41,115 nt of DNA. It comes from Defluviimonas salinarum. GTDB lineage: Bacteria; Pseudomonadota; Alphaproteobacteria; Rhodobacterales; Rhodobacteraceae. Shown piece after piece: positions 6,542-41,115 of this stretch. The stretch lies in NCBI RefSeq assembly GCF_026013545.1, contig NZ_JAPDOG010000030.1, positions 1 through 41,115 of the forward strand, in the 5' to 3' direction. The notes beneath the pieces are model-generated. The model was not told where the DNA came from. It did not search any database and was given only the letters and a program-made list of their open reading frames with translations. The first letter of the stretch is position 1, and every line of letters starts with the position of its first letter. The position numbers were made by a program, and so were the translations under genes.

Positions 6542-6967
6542 TCATTTCGGCGTGATCTTGGCCGTGAAGGTCTGGGCGACGATCTTGCCATCCTCGACAA
6601 GGAAGGTGTCGGTGGCGGTCTCGTAGGTATTGTCGGGCGTGTCGGCGTGCCAGGTGATGTAGCCGATCCGCCCGTTGTAGACCTCGCCGGTCATCTCGAA
6701 GACAACGTCGGGCTTGCCGAACTCGGCGAAGAAGGCCTCGAAGGCGGGGCGCATCTCTTCGGGGCCGGTCATGACCGTGCCGTTGGCAATCATCACCGAC
6801 GTGTCGGTAAAGTCCGCGAGCATGGCGTCCATGTCGCCCGCCCCGAAGGCCGCCAGATGACGGTGCACGACCTCTTCGGTCATCGCCGCGTCGTCCGCCC
6901 ATACAGGACCCGCGAGCGCCAGGATAACGGCAGTCAGAACCGCCGGCTTCGTGAGGATTGCGGTCAT
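6542..6967 (-). CDS. Secreted NTF2-like/SnoaL-like domain protein
   Basis: The product has 141 residues with a clear signal peptide ending around PVWA-DDA (about residue 24), so the mature protein should be periplasmic. The rest matches the NTF2-like fold. A helical start (EEVVHRHLAAFGAGDMDAMLADF) is followed by the conserved DTSVMIANG and GPEEMRPAFEAFF segments, and then by beta strands with YITWHADTPDN and TFLVEDGKI. Such proteins bind small ligands or act as ketosteroid-isomerase-like enzymes; no catalytic residue can be assigned here. It is convergent with acylphosphatase and separated by 83 bp from the Lrp-family regulator. Function unknown. Confidence 0.85.
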   Translation of the reverse strand: MTAILTKPAVLTAVILALAGPVWADDAAMTEEVVHRHLAAFGAGDMDAMLADFTDTSVMIANGTVMTGPEEMRPAFEAFFAEFGKPDVVFEMTGEVYNGRIGYITWHADTPDNTYETATDTFLVEDGKIVAQTFTAKITPK

Positions 6968-7050
6968 TTCGTCCCCCTATGTTTGATTTCGCAAGGCCGC
7001 GCTGGCCCGAGCCGCGACTATAGCACATCCGGGCCGCCACCGCCCGGCGC

Positions 7051-7506
7051 TCACCCGACCGGCAGGACCTGGCGCTTGACCATCGCGCGGAGCGCGAAGG
7101 AGGAGCGGGTCGAGCGGATGCCCGGCACCCGCATCAGCTTTTCTTCGAGGAAGCGGTCGAAATCGGCGAGGTCGGCCGCCACCACCCGCATCAGGATGTC
7201 GCGCGATCCGGTCATCAGGTGGCACTCCATCACCCGGTCGAAGCCCCTCACCGCGCGTTCGAAGGCCTCGATCGCGTCCTTCGACTGCTTTTCCAGCTCG
7301 ACCCAGATGAAGATCGAGACCGGCAGGCCGACCCGGTGCTGGTCGATCCGCGCCGAATAGCCCTCGATCACGCCTTCGGATTCGAGTCGGGCAAGACGGC
7401 GGGCACAGGGCGTCTGCGACAGGCCGATCTCGGCGGCGAGGTCGGTCACGGTGAGGCGACCGTCGCGCTGGAGAGCCGCGAGAATCCGGCGGTCTATGGC
7501 GTCCAT
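7051..7506 (-). CDS. Lrp/AsnC-family transcriptional regulator
   Basis: The product is a 151-residue DNA-binding regulator. The N-terminal winged helix-turn-helix is at about residues 3-48 (LTVTDLAAEIGLSQTPCARR and the following recognition helix). The C-terminal RAM ligand-binding domain carries the family segment VMECHLMTGSRDILMRVV. Lrp/AsnC proteins usually sense an amino acid and control metabolism of that amino acid. This gene is transcribed divergently from a Glu/Leu/Phe/Val dehydrogenase gene, with 132 bp between start codons, which makes that dehydrogenase the obvious target. Autoregulation from the shared intergenic region is likely by family habit but not shown. Confidence 0.94.
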   Translation of the reverse strand: MDAIDRRILAALQRDGRLTVTDLAAEIGLSQTPCARRLARLESEGVIEGYSARIDQHRVGLPVSIFIWVELEKQSKDAIEAFERAVRGFDRVMECHLMTGSRDILMRVVAADLADFDRFLEEKLMRVPGIRSTRSSFALRAMVKRQVLPVG

Positions 7507-38879: not shown

Positions 38880-38973
38880 GACCTGCCCCTCGCCTTTCCG
38901 CCCAAGATAGGCACCCCGGCCACGGCTGTGTAGGGGCGATTGCCAAGCCGCGTCTCGGCGGCTAGGGAGGGCC

Positions 38974-39741
38974 ATGCCCCGCTACGCGCTTCTGATCGAC
39001 TATCACGGCGGCCCGTTTTCGGGCTGGCAGCGGCAATCCGGCCAGCCCTCGGTGCAGGAGGCGGTGGAAACCGCGCTCCGGAAGCTCGAAGCGGAAGCCC
39101 CCGGCATCGCGGCGGCGGGGCGCACCGATGCCGGTGTCCACGCCACGGGCCAGGTCGCGCATTGCGACCTCGCGAAGGACTGGGACCCGTTCCGTCTATC
39201 CGAGGCCTTGAACTTCCACCTGAAACCCGCCCCGGTGGCGATCCTCAAGGCCGCCCGCGTCGCCGACGACTTCCACGCCCGCTTCTCGGCCAACGAGCGG
39301 CGCTACCTCTTCCGGCTGATCGCGCGCCGCGCGCCGCTCACCCATGACGCGGGGCTGGCGTGGCGGGTGCTGAACCGGCTCGACGCGGAAGCGATGCGCG
39401 CGGGCGCCGCCCATCTCGTCGGCCATCACGACTTCACCACCTTCCGCTCGACTCTCTGCCAGTCGAAGAGCCCGGTGAAAACACTCGACGAGATCACGAT
39501 CACCGAGCACGCGATCCCGCAGGGAACCGAGTACCGTTTCCAGCTTCGTGCCCGGAGCTTCCTGCACAACCAGGTCCGCTCCATCGTCGGCACGCTCGAA
39601 CGTGTCGGCGCCGGGTCCTGGGCGCCCGAGGACGTGCGCGCCGCGCTCGAGGCCCGCGACCGCACCGCCTGCGGGCCGGTCTCGCCGCCCGACGGGCTCT
39701 ATCTCACCGGCGTTGGCTATCCCGAGAACCCCTTCGTGTGA
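38974..39741 (+). CDS. truA: tRNA pseudouridine synthase A
   Basis: This enzyme forms pseudouridine at positions 38-40 of the tRNA anticodon arm. It has 255 residues, the normal length. The N-terminal [18 protein letters not shown] and the catalytic loop [13 protein letters not shown] with D52 are diagnostic. [21 protein letters not shown] and [12 protein letters not shown] complete the family pattern. ATG 38974 follows AGGGAGGGCC. It is transcribed divergently from ycjX and is followed by 172 bp without a recognised gene before the first small Pro/Arg-rich ORF. Confidence 0.97.
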
Positions 39742-39913
39742 GTCTATTGCGTCGCGGTTCCGGGGCGCCGAACGCCGCCCTGGGGATGGCGCGCGCGGAA
39801 ACTGACGCTCGATTGCCGGAGATTTCACGACGGCGCGCCCGACGGTCTGACGTCGCGCTGACAGGTCCGTTGCAGGATGAACCATCGAAACCCAGCAAGG
39901 AAAGGCCAGACCG

Positions 39914-40024
39914 ATGCCCCGCCCCCAGCCCCGCCGCGAAACGCCCCGCATCTACCGCCCCGCGCCGCCGCCCGGTCCGCGCATGCCCAGGACCTACCGC
40001 TTCACCGACTTCGCGATGATCTGA
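39914..40024 (+). CDS. Tiny Pro/Arg-rich protein 1, novel family
   Basis: A 36-residue ORF (10 Pro, 8 Arg) with a strong ribosome site AAGGAAAGG (39897-39905) eight bases before the ATG. Its last ten residues, TYRFTDFAMI, differ at only two positions from the last ten of the second small ORF at 40889-41005 (TYRFTDWAAI). Both end directly at the stop codon. The rest is low-complexity Pro/Arg sequence. I do not recognise it. It could be an RNA- or ribosome-binding microprotein, a leader peptide for the gene that begins 87 bp later, or an unannotated conserved small protein. Expression is inferred from the ribosome site and paralogy only. Confidence 0.65.
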   Translation: MPRPQPRRETPRIYRPAPPPGPRMPRTYRFTDFAMI

Positions 40025-40111
40025 CCCCCGCAAACGCCAGCGCGGACCCTTTACCCTCCGCCCGCTCTCCGCATAGGCTTTCAGGACCACAGTCAGCCCC
40101 GGGTGGAGCGC

Positions 40112-40621
40112 ATGTTTCAGGACGACTTTCCCCTTCTTGGTACCCCGAGCCTCCTCGCGCTGATCCTGCACGGGGCGGAGGCCGGACCGGTGACCCTCGA
40201 CGACTGCGCCGCCCGTCTCGACGCGCTTTTCCGCGAGGCGAACGAACGCCCCGCCCTGCCGCCCGATGCCATCCGCGACCGGCTCGCGCGCCACGTCCGC
40301 CAGCTCGAGATTGCCCGGCTCCTCGAGCCGGTCGGGGACAGCGCCTATCGGCTCACCGACCGCGGCAGCGAGACGCTGCGGCACCGGACCGGCCGGATCG
40401 ACCTGCCCGACCTGATGTCATACCCCGAATACGCCGCGCATATCGGCGAGAGCGGCGGCCATGCGCCGCGTGCGGATACCCGCGGCGCGAGCTACGACGA
40501 AGGCTACGAGGCCCGGCGCGCCGGCCGGAGGTTCACCGCCAATCCGTACACGGTCAATTCCGTCGACCACCTCTGCTGGGAGAACGGCTGGATGGAGGCG
40601 CTCGACGACGAGCAGCCCTGA
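40112..40621 (+). CDS. Mrr_N-like winged helix plus Rmf/CrpP-like C-terminus, hypothetical
   Basis: The product has 169 residues. Residues ~8-105 look like an N-terminal winged helix of the Mrr_N type: SLLALILHGAEAG, a long helical middle, ARHVRQLEIARLLEPVGDSAYRLTDRGSETL, then RIDLPDLMSYPEYAAHI. The last ~40 residues (YDEGYEARRAGRRFTANPYT, then W-x2-GW-x2-A) match the ribosome modulation factor/CrpP pattern G-Y-x-A-x3-G...PY...W-x2-GW. The fusion is not one I know. ATG 40112 has GGTGGAG five bases upstream; the GTG at 40103 would add three residues. It is flanked by the two tiny Pro/Arg-rich ORFs. A ribosome-related role is a hypothesis. Confidence 0.7.
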   Translation: MFQDDFPLLGTPSLLALILHGAEAGPVTLDDCAARLDALFREANERPALPPDAIRDRLARHVRQLEIARLLEPVGDSAYRLTDRGSETLRHRTGRIDLPDLMSYPEYAAHIGESGGHAPRADTRGASYDEGYEARRAGRRFTANPYTVNSVDHLCWENGWMEALDDEQP

Positions 40622-40888
40622 TCCCGCGTGGATGGCGCGCCCGCACCGGACGGTCAGTCCGCAGGGTCGGGATTTCCCGACCTGTCGCGCGGAACCACAA
40701 ATGCTATCCTTTCCGTATTGACGAAAGGCATTTTGAAGGGGCCGACGGGTGGCAAAGGCCGGGGTCCCGACATTCAACGCGGATCCCGGCCGGCAACACA
40801 TGATCTCACGTCCCCGCCAGCGGACCGACACATTTCTGGATCCGCGCCGGCCGGCCCCCATGTCCTTCCGTGAACGAAGGAGAGAGTC
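40622..40888. other. Intergenic region upstream of the second small ORF
   Basis: No convincing gene lies in these 267 bp. The stretch 40690-40735 is AT-richer and contains the inverted repeat CCTTTCCG/CGAAAGG (40708-40715 and 40722-40728), a candidate operator for the second small ORF. An 81-codon open frame at 40628-40873 has no ribosome site and is not called. Confidence 0.45.
40665..40682 (+). terminator. Hairpin downstream of the Mrr_N/Rmf-like gene
   Basis: A perfect 7-bp stem GGTCGGG/CCCGACC with the loop ATTT lies 43 bp after the stop codon. A smaller stem CGGAC/GTCCG lies just before it (40647-40661). No T-run follows, so this is only a possible terminator, separating the gene from the second small ORF. 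Confidence 0.45.
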
Positions 40889-41005
40889 ATGAATCGACAA
40901 GCCCCGCGCCCGCCCGTTCCGAAGCCCCGCACCGGAGACCGCAAGCCGCGTCCGCCGCGCGCCCCGCGCGTCACCTACCGGTTCACCGACTGGGCCGCGA
41001 TCTAG
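40889..41005 (+). CDS. Tiny Pro/Arg-rich protein 2, paralogue of protein 1
   Basis: A 38-residue ORF (9 Pro, 8 Arg, 2 Lys) with a strong AAGGAG site at 40877-40882 before ATG 40889. The C-terminal TYRFTDWAAI matches TYRFTDFAMI of the ORF at 39914-40024 in eight of ten positions, and in both cases the tail ends at the stop codon. Its TAG stop (41003-41005) lies in the CTAG target site of the IS. The insertion therefore kept the coding sequence intact but cut off whatever followed. Unrecognised function. The preserved tail and ribosome site argue for a real gene. Confidence 0.7.
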   Translation: MNRQAPRPPVPKPRTGDRKPRPPRAPRVTYRFTDWAAI

Positions 41006-41115
41006 GTCATGTTGACAATTGGCGGAGCCAGAGGCGGATCGAGGTTATGTCGATGAAACCCAGGAAGCTTTCGGCAGTCTTGTCGTAGCGGGTGGCGACA
41101 CGGCGGGCGTTCTTG
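41006..41115 (-). mobile_element. IS5-family insertion sequence, 3' end (right copy, inverted)
   Basis: Positions 41003-41115 are the exact reverse complement of positions 3-115. The IS end is placed next to the CTAG at 41002-41005, which fits a YTAR target. This copy points in the opposite direction to the left one, so the two bracket the whole window as inverted repeats with their 3' ends inward. Confidence 0.85.
41007..41115 (-). CDS. IS5-family transposase, C-terminal fragment
   Basis: Minus-strand frame entering from the right edge and ending at TGA (41009-41007). It encodes the same C-terminal tail as the copy at 1-111, with ATRYDKTAESFLGF and SIRLWLRQ. The catalytic domain is outside the window. 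It ends within two bases of the stop codon of the second small Pro/Arg-rich ORF. Confidence 0.85.
   Translation of the reverse strand, partial: KNARRVATRYDKTAESFLGFIDITSIRLWLRQLST

Follow-up and report, generated by a model that had tools for sequence, protein, structure and literature searches.

Stop-proximal leader and arrest peptides, such as TnaC, MgtL, and the Erm-type peptides, are among the closest described counterparts of the microproteins analyzed here: both are a few tens of codons long and combine a variable start with residues conserved right before the stop codon. MgtL in particular shares with the microproteins an association with ABC-F ATPases: EttA acts on it, and the microprotein genes have ABC-F genes in their neighbourhood. 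The microproteins differ from leader and arrest peptides in lacking a constant downstream target, in facing a convergent downstream gene in about 16 of 52 loci, and in having a stop codon that is not fixed, and no RNA switch recurs consistently among them. DUF1127 small proteins of Alphaproteobacteria are likewise short, often unannotated, and present as several paralogues per genome, but the microproteins have no DUF1127 match above the cut-off and their conserved part is a seven-residue tail. Proteins such as bacterial SSB, in which a disordered linker leads to a conserved docking tip, also have a Pro/Gln-rich linker, and their short tip likewise contains an acidic residue and ends in a hydrophobic one; unlike SSB, the microproteins have no folded domain, a different tip sequence, and a free-standing gene. 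A protein with a domain resembling ribosome modulation factor (RMF, PF04957) is encoded between the two microprotein ORFs described below, which themselves have no RMF match.

The two ORFs lie near the 3' end of the window, that is, the whole stretch of 41,115 nucleotides of Defluviimonas salinarum DNA that was analyzed. The following features were located, with ORF coordinates including the stop codon.

39897..39905, plus strand: ribosome-binding site of microprotein 1, AAGGAAAGG
39914..40024, plus strand: microprotein 1 (ORF1), 36 aa, MPRPQPRRETPRIYRPAPPPGPRMPRTYRFTDFAMI, stop TGA
39992..40021, plus strand: conserved C-terminal tail of microprotein 1, TYRFTDFAMI, running up to the stop
40112..40621, plus strand: gene for a 169-aa protein with an RMF-like domain, between the microproteins (C-terminal PF04957, E 5.6e-9, above the cut-off)
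40806..40833, plus strand: promoter-like element of microprotein 2 (TCAC, 17 bases, GACACAT), ending 55 bases 5' of the start codon
40877..40884, plus strand: ribosome-binding site of microprotein 2, AAGGAGAG
40889..41005, plus strand: microprotein 2 (ORF2), 38 aa, MNRQAPRPPVPKPRTGDRKPRPPRAPRVTYRFTDWAAI, stop TAG
40973..41002, plus strand: conserved C-terminal tail of microprotein 2, TYRFTDWAAI, running up to the stop
41006..41115, minus strand: 3' end of a transposase, presumably of the IS5 type

An earlier note on this DNA had described two ORFs of 36 and 38 residues, each preceded by a ribosome site and ending in a common tail directly before the stop codon, and this description was borne out, with 8 of 10 tail residues identical. 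Across the 5.0 Mb genome the TYRFTD pattern is confined to these two sites (a single further one appears if one mismatch is allowed), which sets the shared tail beyond chance, as the note had held. The product of the gene between the ORFs is not a member of the microprotein family, and relatives 54% identical to it were found in 2 of 21 other genomes of the genus; its N-terminal part looks winged-helix-like by eye. The transposase starts on the minus strand right after the ORF2 stop, and the contig end at 41115 falls inside it, so the former downstream sequence of ORF2 has been displaced. Likely orthologues of microprotein 2 were identified in the genus (L031/L004, L368, L385, and L394), and the length difference between ORF2 and L031 amounts to three whole codons, which does not shift the reading frame; frame-disrupting changes in relatives were one of the refutations named in the note. 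A third copy in the same genome (G000:C1:93573, recovered as L373 and L395; MEYPRQM...ATIFTDWASI) lies 58 bases 5' of a TfoX_C gene, and this genome thus has at least three members. An ndk gene and a YheS-like ABC-F gene lie near this third copy.

Further members were sought in genomes of Rhodobacteraceae with tail patterns, and an ORF was retained if it had an ATG start, a ribosome site, and a body of low complexity, and if x-x-D-[WYF]-A-x-[ILF] directly preceded the stop codon. Ninety-eight distinct members passed these filters, with lengths of 25–72 residues and sequences very unlike one another apart from the short terminal tail. The homologues are thus abundant within the Rhodobacteraceae, in agreement with the note's proposal of a real microprotein family, and tandem copies recur: three in L219, two each in L217 and L225, and two in the window. 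The three in L219 are packed into 475 bases (6839–7313) and end in FRFTDWASI, VRYSDWAAI, and VRFTDWAAL. Looser tails with the same architecture, including FSDWASI, ITDWASI, VITDYASL, and FRDWASI, were found upstream of TfoX_C genes. ORF1 and ORF2 were accordingly assigned, by sequence, to one lineage of a larger family. The shared tail proposed in the note therefore stood as the mark of a family, but TYR is a feature of one lineage, since what all lineages conserve is [F/I]-x-D-[W/F/Y]-A-x-[I/L/F]-stop. Pro/Arg richness, which the note had also listed, did not hold as a family trait, other members being Gln-rich or acidic.

The specificity of the tail was assessed with pattern scans. In larger samples the six-residue match is not telling in itself (TYRFTD gave 16 places in 394 family genomes, 7 of them members, and the reversed pattern 13); its position at the stop is. 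DWA-x-I-stop was found at 28 places in 19 of the 22 genomes of the genus, against none for the reversed pattern, and 26 of the 28 were kept as members, with one place ending in TGG and one without a start being dropped. RFTDWA was found at 56 places in 388 Rhodobacteraceae genomes, against 24 reversed (manual count). At 34 of the 56, in 31 of the 388 genomes, the frame stops exactly two residues after DWA; the remaining 22, approximately as many as in the control, fall within other reading frames, among them several RNase D genes. An exact-pattern scan for YRFTDW-A/V with one genome per species resulted in 107 stretches, from which 81 were dropped by eye (the frame was long, or a ribosome site and start were lacking) to leave 26 small ORFs with a start and a ribosome site. 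All but one of these 26 end in the tail, the exception (L032) running past it, and we take their carriers to be Rhodobacterales genera or metagenome-assembled genomes labelled Rhodobacteraceae, Rhodobacterales, Alphaproteobacteria, or bacterium.

Beyond the family, DWA-x-I-stop, which covers W tails ending in Ile only, gave no member outside the Rhodobacteraceae in 174 sampled alphaproteobacterial genomes. The 177 genomes of the class scan held 26 places (reversed control 12, manual count), of which 2 belong to this genome; 12 of the other 24 are not stops, and the remaining 12 include a single member, which belongs to the Rhodobacteraceae. RFTDWA matched in 41 of 289 class genomes, and none of the 29 loci examined beyond the window's own (L262–L290) encodes a small protein. 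At 25 of these 29 loci (22 by motif, 3 by eye) the match is instead a DKSSRFTDWARRPL-like segment in alphaproteobacterial RNase D, an identity established with NCBIfam rnd for one locus. Such segments, which are conserved and internal to RNase D, would fit a peptide whose RFTDWA mimics them and so vies with RNase D for a common contact. We consider such mimicry very improbable: the TfoX_C-linked tails FSDWASI, ITDWASI, and VITDYASL differ before DWA, so R-F-T is not general and RFTDWA is not shared by all members, and by a rough estimate the chance of meeting the hexamer in some conserved protein is a few per cent.

Microprotein 1 scores 30.8 bits with tail profile A1, of which it is itself a row, the match being partly by construction. 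Among 10 further tail-profile places examined, no long protein ending in the tail was found, and the same places yielded two more small members (L434 and L436). In many genomes of the family, a 15.6-bit match to the tail profile also recurs within a reading frame some 600 codons long (e.g., G022:C7:47080-47106). The tail was observed at the end of small proteins only, and its hydrophobic last residue, carried on a tether of low complexity, is reminiscent of C-degrons; it could deliver the microprotein, or a partner bound to the tether, to a protease such as ClpXP or Lon. The motif is longer and more specific than typical degrons, with an aromatic residue at -7 followed by D, W, and A, and a role as degron or protease adaptor seems to us improbable.

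Conservation was next examined residue by residue. Among the 98 members, W is present in 93, the last-but-one residue is S, A, or M in 92, and the final residue is I in 82; the invariance of D and A, like the low-complexity body, follows in part from how members were searched for and filtered. In 60 tails compared, the residues hold while third codon positions vary. Over 40 close pairs, the body had a pN/pS of 0.19/0.40 and the tail one of 0.05/0.39, values that are descriptive because pairs share members, and ORF2 compared with its genus relatives in L400 and L401 gave a pS of about 0.5 and a pN of about 0.12. The members are therefore, as judged from these substitution patterns, under selection at the protein level, strongest in the tail, and the synonymous bias anticipated in the note was recovered. 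The stop codon itself is not fixed (TGA in 77, TAA in 11, and TAG in 10 of the 98), which would be anticipated for a function carried by the peptide rather than by its mRNA. The body, in 61 members, averages 26% Pro and about 6% V, L, I, M, F, and W together, and is also rich in Arg, Ala, Thr, Gln, and Lys with few hydrophobic residues. A hydrophobic membrane helix like that of type I toxins is not found in the body of these 61 members as judged by composition, from which the body is predicted to be disordered. Net charge ranges from -5 to +9 across the same 61 members, so charge is not the conserved feature. As the members differ greatly except at the terminal tail, the tail is suggested to be the working part of the protein.

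The note had considered the family probably undescribed, and the database searches agree. Neither window ORF has a match above the cut-off in Pfam, NCBIfam, PHROGs, or PADLOC, the weak Pfam line for ORF2 (Nsp2_AV, E 0.023) being below the family cut-off, and five TfoX_C-linked members have no Pfam or NCBIfam match above the cut-off. Matches in the PDB were limited to two fragments attributable to chance (E 0.57 and 1.2). The tail strings led to no paper describing a protein of this kind, in a literature search that took in subscription journals to a small extent, and no such family is named in the titles and abstract openings of the papers found on TfoX, Rhodobacteraceae, and small proteins. 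The microproteins thus appear to form a widespread and apparently undescribed family. Membership in a defence system was rejected, there being no PADLOC match. A phage or mobile origin was also rejected, with no PHROGs match and no member among the 13 and 3 viral contigs matched by tail patterns; 50,697 phage records gave no match to a composite query, and a viral contig scan for the RMF-like neighbour gave no relative. Two members lie on plasmids, outside any gene listed in the PLSDB gene table, which is incomplete, and a further plasmid search with a made-up query gave no match.

The genomic context of the members was then examined, and two main lineages were distinguished, one upstream of TfoX_C genes and one near ettA. 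TfoX_C (PF04994) genes were found in 147 of 198 family genomes. From these, the 30 best-scoring loci were chosen regardless of the microprotein, giving 28 distinct scorable loci besides L337, in which one gene separates the microprotein from TfoX_C; in 19 of the 28, a D-[WYF]-A-x-[ILFVM]-stop tail was found within 500 bases upstream. TfoX_C was called downstream in 13 of 55 member loci, 9 of which also have a second ABC-F gene 0.8–2.8 kb further on, and in several loci ndk lies on the other strand between the two. This second ABC-F gene is closest to YheS (PRK10636), below the NCBIfam cut-off. If no TfoX_C was called (42 loci), EttA was found within about 7 kb in 25, upstream and on the same strand in 22 of these; one representative passed the NCBIfam cut-off for EttA and the others were named by an identity of 70% or more. 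None of the 55 loci combines EttA with a called TfoX_C.

The ettA lineage is patchy. From 61 EttA places 40 were sampled, several of them with neighbourhoods cut by contig ends, and a member was found near ettA in one (L297), or in 3 of 42 if G040, whose member has an extended tail, and G045 are added. The order dacB-nadD-ettA is kept in 25 of the 40, and with 39 of 40 lacking a member the ABC-F link, which strikingly involves a different ABC-F gene in each lineage, may be plain synteny. For the second ABC-F gene, the opposite-strand ndk between it and TfoX_C points the same way. The same patchiness favors a view of the ORFs as remnants or chance ORFs in GC-rich intergenic DNA, which we regard as having next to no likelihood, given that all 98 members carry the tail directly before the stop codon, that the genus scan gave 28 places against 0 reversed, and that pN is below pS. 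In G014 the gene order is EttA (86% identical), microprotein, and RMF-like gene, and this order suggests that the window pair, which flanks its RMF-like gene away from ettA, derives from an ettA locus of that type. The stretch 3' of ettA (L292 8895–9665, L293 7300–7900) holds different genes in this genome and in its relative G003, and the site directly 3' of ettA, with dacB-nadD-ettA kept, is possibly a variable spot. A transposase, presumably of the REP-associated type, recurs next to ettA both with and without a microprotein (L294, L304, L309, L310, and L324; L096, L219, L220, and L224).

These neighbourhoods bear on whether the microprotein acts in cis. As a nascent-chain sensor, the ORF would carry an arrest motif read in the ribosome and would control the downstream gene, be it TfoX_C, the RMF-like gene, csp, or the gene for an L,D-transpeptidase. 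Conservation that reaches the last codon before the stop fits such a role, as does the spacing of TfoX_C, which starts 34–182 bases after the microprotein stop in 50 of 51 pairs. EttA of E. coli acts on MgtL, a Pro- and Asp-containing leader peptide, according to PMC11282234, and the MgtL motif concerned is at the start of the peptide. A short ORF of this composition can therefore be a client of an ABC-F protein, albeit with the motif at the start and not the end. The downstream genes, however, vary between loci without a constant partner. By mechanical calling, 35 of 52 loci have a co-directional first ORF downstream, so that a cis role is possible there, and 17 have a convergent one, or about 16 after correction for L215, in which a TfoX_C gene missed by the ORF caller was found by tblastn. 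A same-strand downstream gene, as a leader needs, is thus not general, being found in the TfoX_C lineage and for ORF1 of the window, and the convergent genes argue for action in trans.

Upstream signals and RNA pairing were analyzed with shuffled sequences as controls. Of 96 members, 26 carry TCAC at -92 to -72 from the start, where shuffles gave 5.9, for a motif picked after inspection; in some members (G/T)AAACAT follows about 17 bases after it, an arrangement that ORF2 fits and ORF1 fits poorly. Of the 51 pairs, 26 have a -10-like box, likewise picked after inspection, just 5' of tfoX_C, where shuffles gave 3.0 (three other versions of the motif gave 11, 23, and 18 of 51); the box was also found in 3 of 10 TfoX_C loci without a microprotein, where shuffles gave 0.4. 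Given the 26 pairs, tfoX_C often seems to have a promoter of its own. Pairing was calculated for the 27 pairs that passed filters, namely 26 of the 51 with TfoX_C plus ORF1 and the RMF-like gene: the downstream ribosome site was unpaired at a mean of 0.30, against 0.35 in shuffles. Seven of the 27 fell below the 10% level of their own shuffles, with 2.7 expected, mostly in the window's genus, and the tfoX_C ribosome site is fully paired in the genus members L376, L379, L380, and L381, so a leader role in some members is possible. The site of the RMF-like gene after ORF1 is paired, as it also is in 30% of shuffles, and no known RNA family was found within 38900–41115. A general leader-peptide role is disfavored. 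With pairing only slightly above shuffles, own -10-like boxes before tfoX_C, and convergent neighbours, docking in trans is preferred over action in cis, and we consider the nascent-chain sensor unlikely.

Our preferred explanation, to which we give about an even chance, is a small protein that acts in trans through a C-terminal docking tail. The variable Pro/Gln-rich part would be disordered and act as the tether of a docking motif formed by the final seven residues, F/I-x-D-W-A-x-I-COOH. Trp, Ala, and the terminal Ile with its free carboxylate would insert into a pocket that is conserved in one cellular partner, and the protein would exert its effect by occupying or bridging this site. Expression of the genes and docking of the tail are both predictions from sequence. 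The one hint as to the partner is location, the lineages adjoining ettA or the second ABC-F gene. ABC-F ATPases act on the ribosome. Conceivably, the family is a signalling system in which several paralogous disordered microproteins per cell compete through a shared key, F-x-D-W-A-x-I-COOH, for one conserved lock in the translation machinery, plausibly the ribosome with the ABC-F ATPases EttA and the YheS-like protein, with each promoter tuned to a condition, though we view this broader proposal as a long shot.

The family is thus present in most genomes of the genus and upstream of most TfoX_C genes examined in a large bacterial family, yet it has no match in the protein-family databases used; gene callers and profile methods probably miss proteins this short and variable. 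The function is open to direct testing, as the tail hardly varies while the body does. Should the partner prove to be the ribosome or an ABC-F factor, these microproteins would add a protein layer to the bacterial control of stalled translation.
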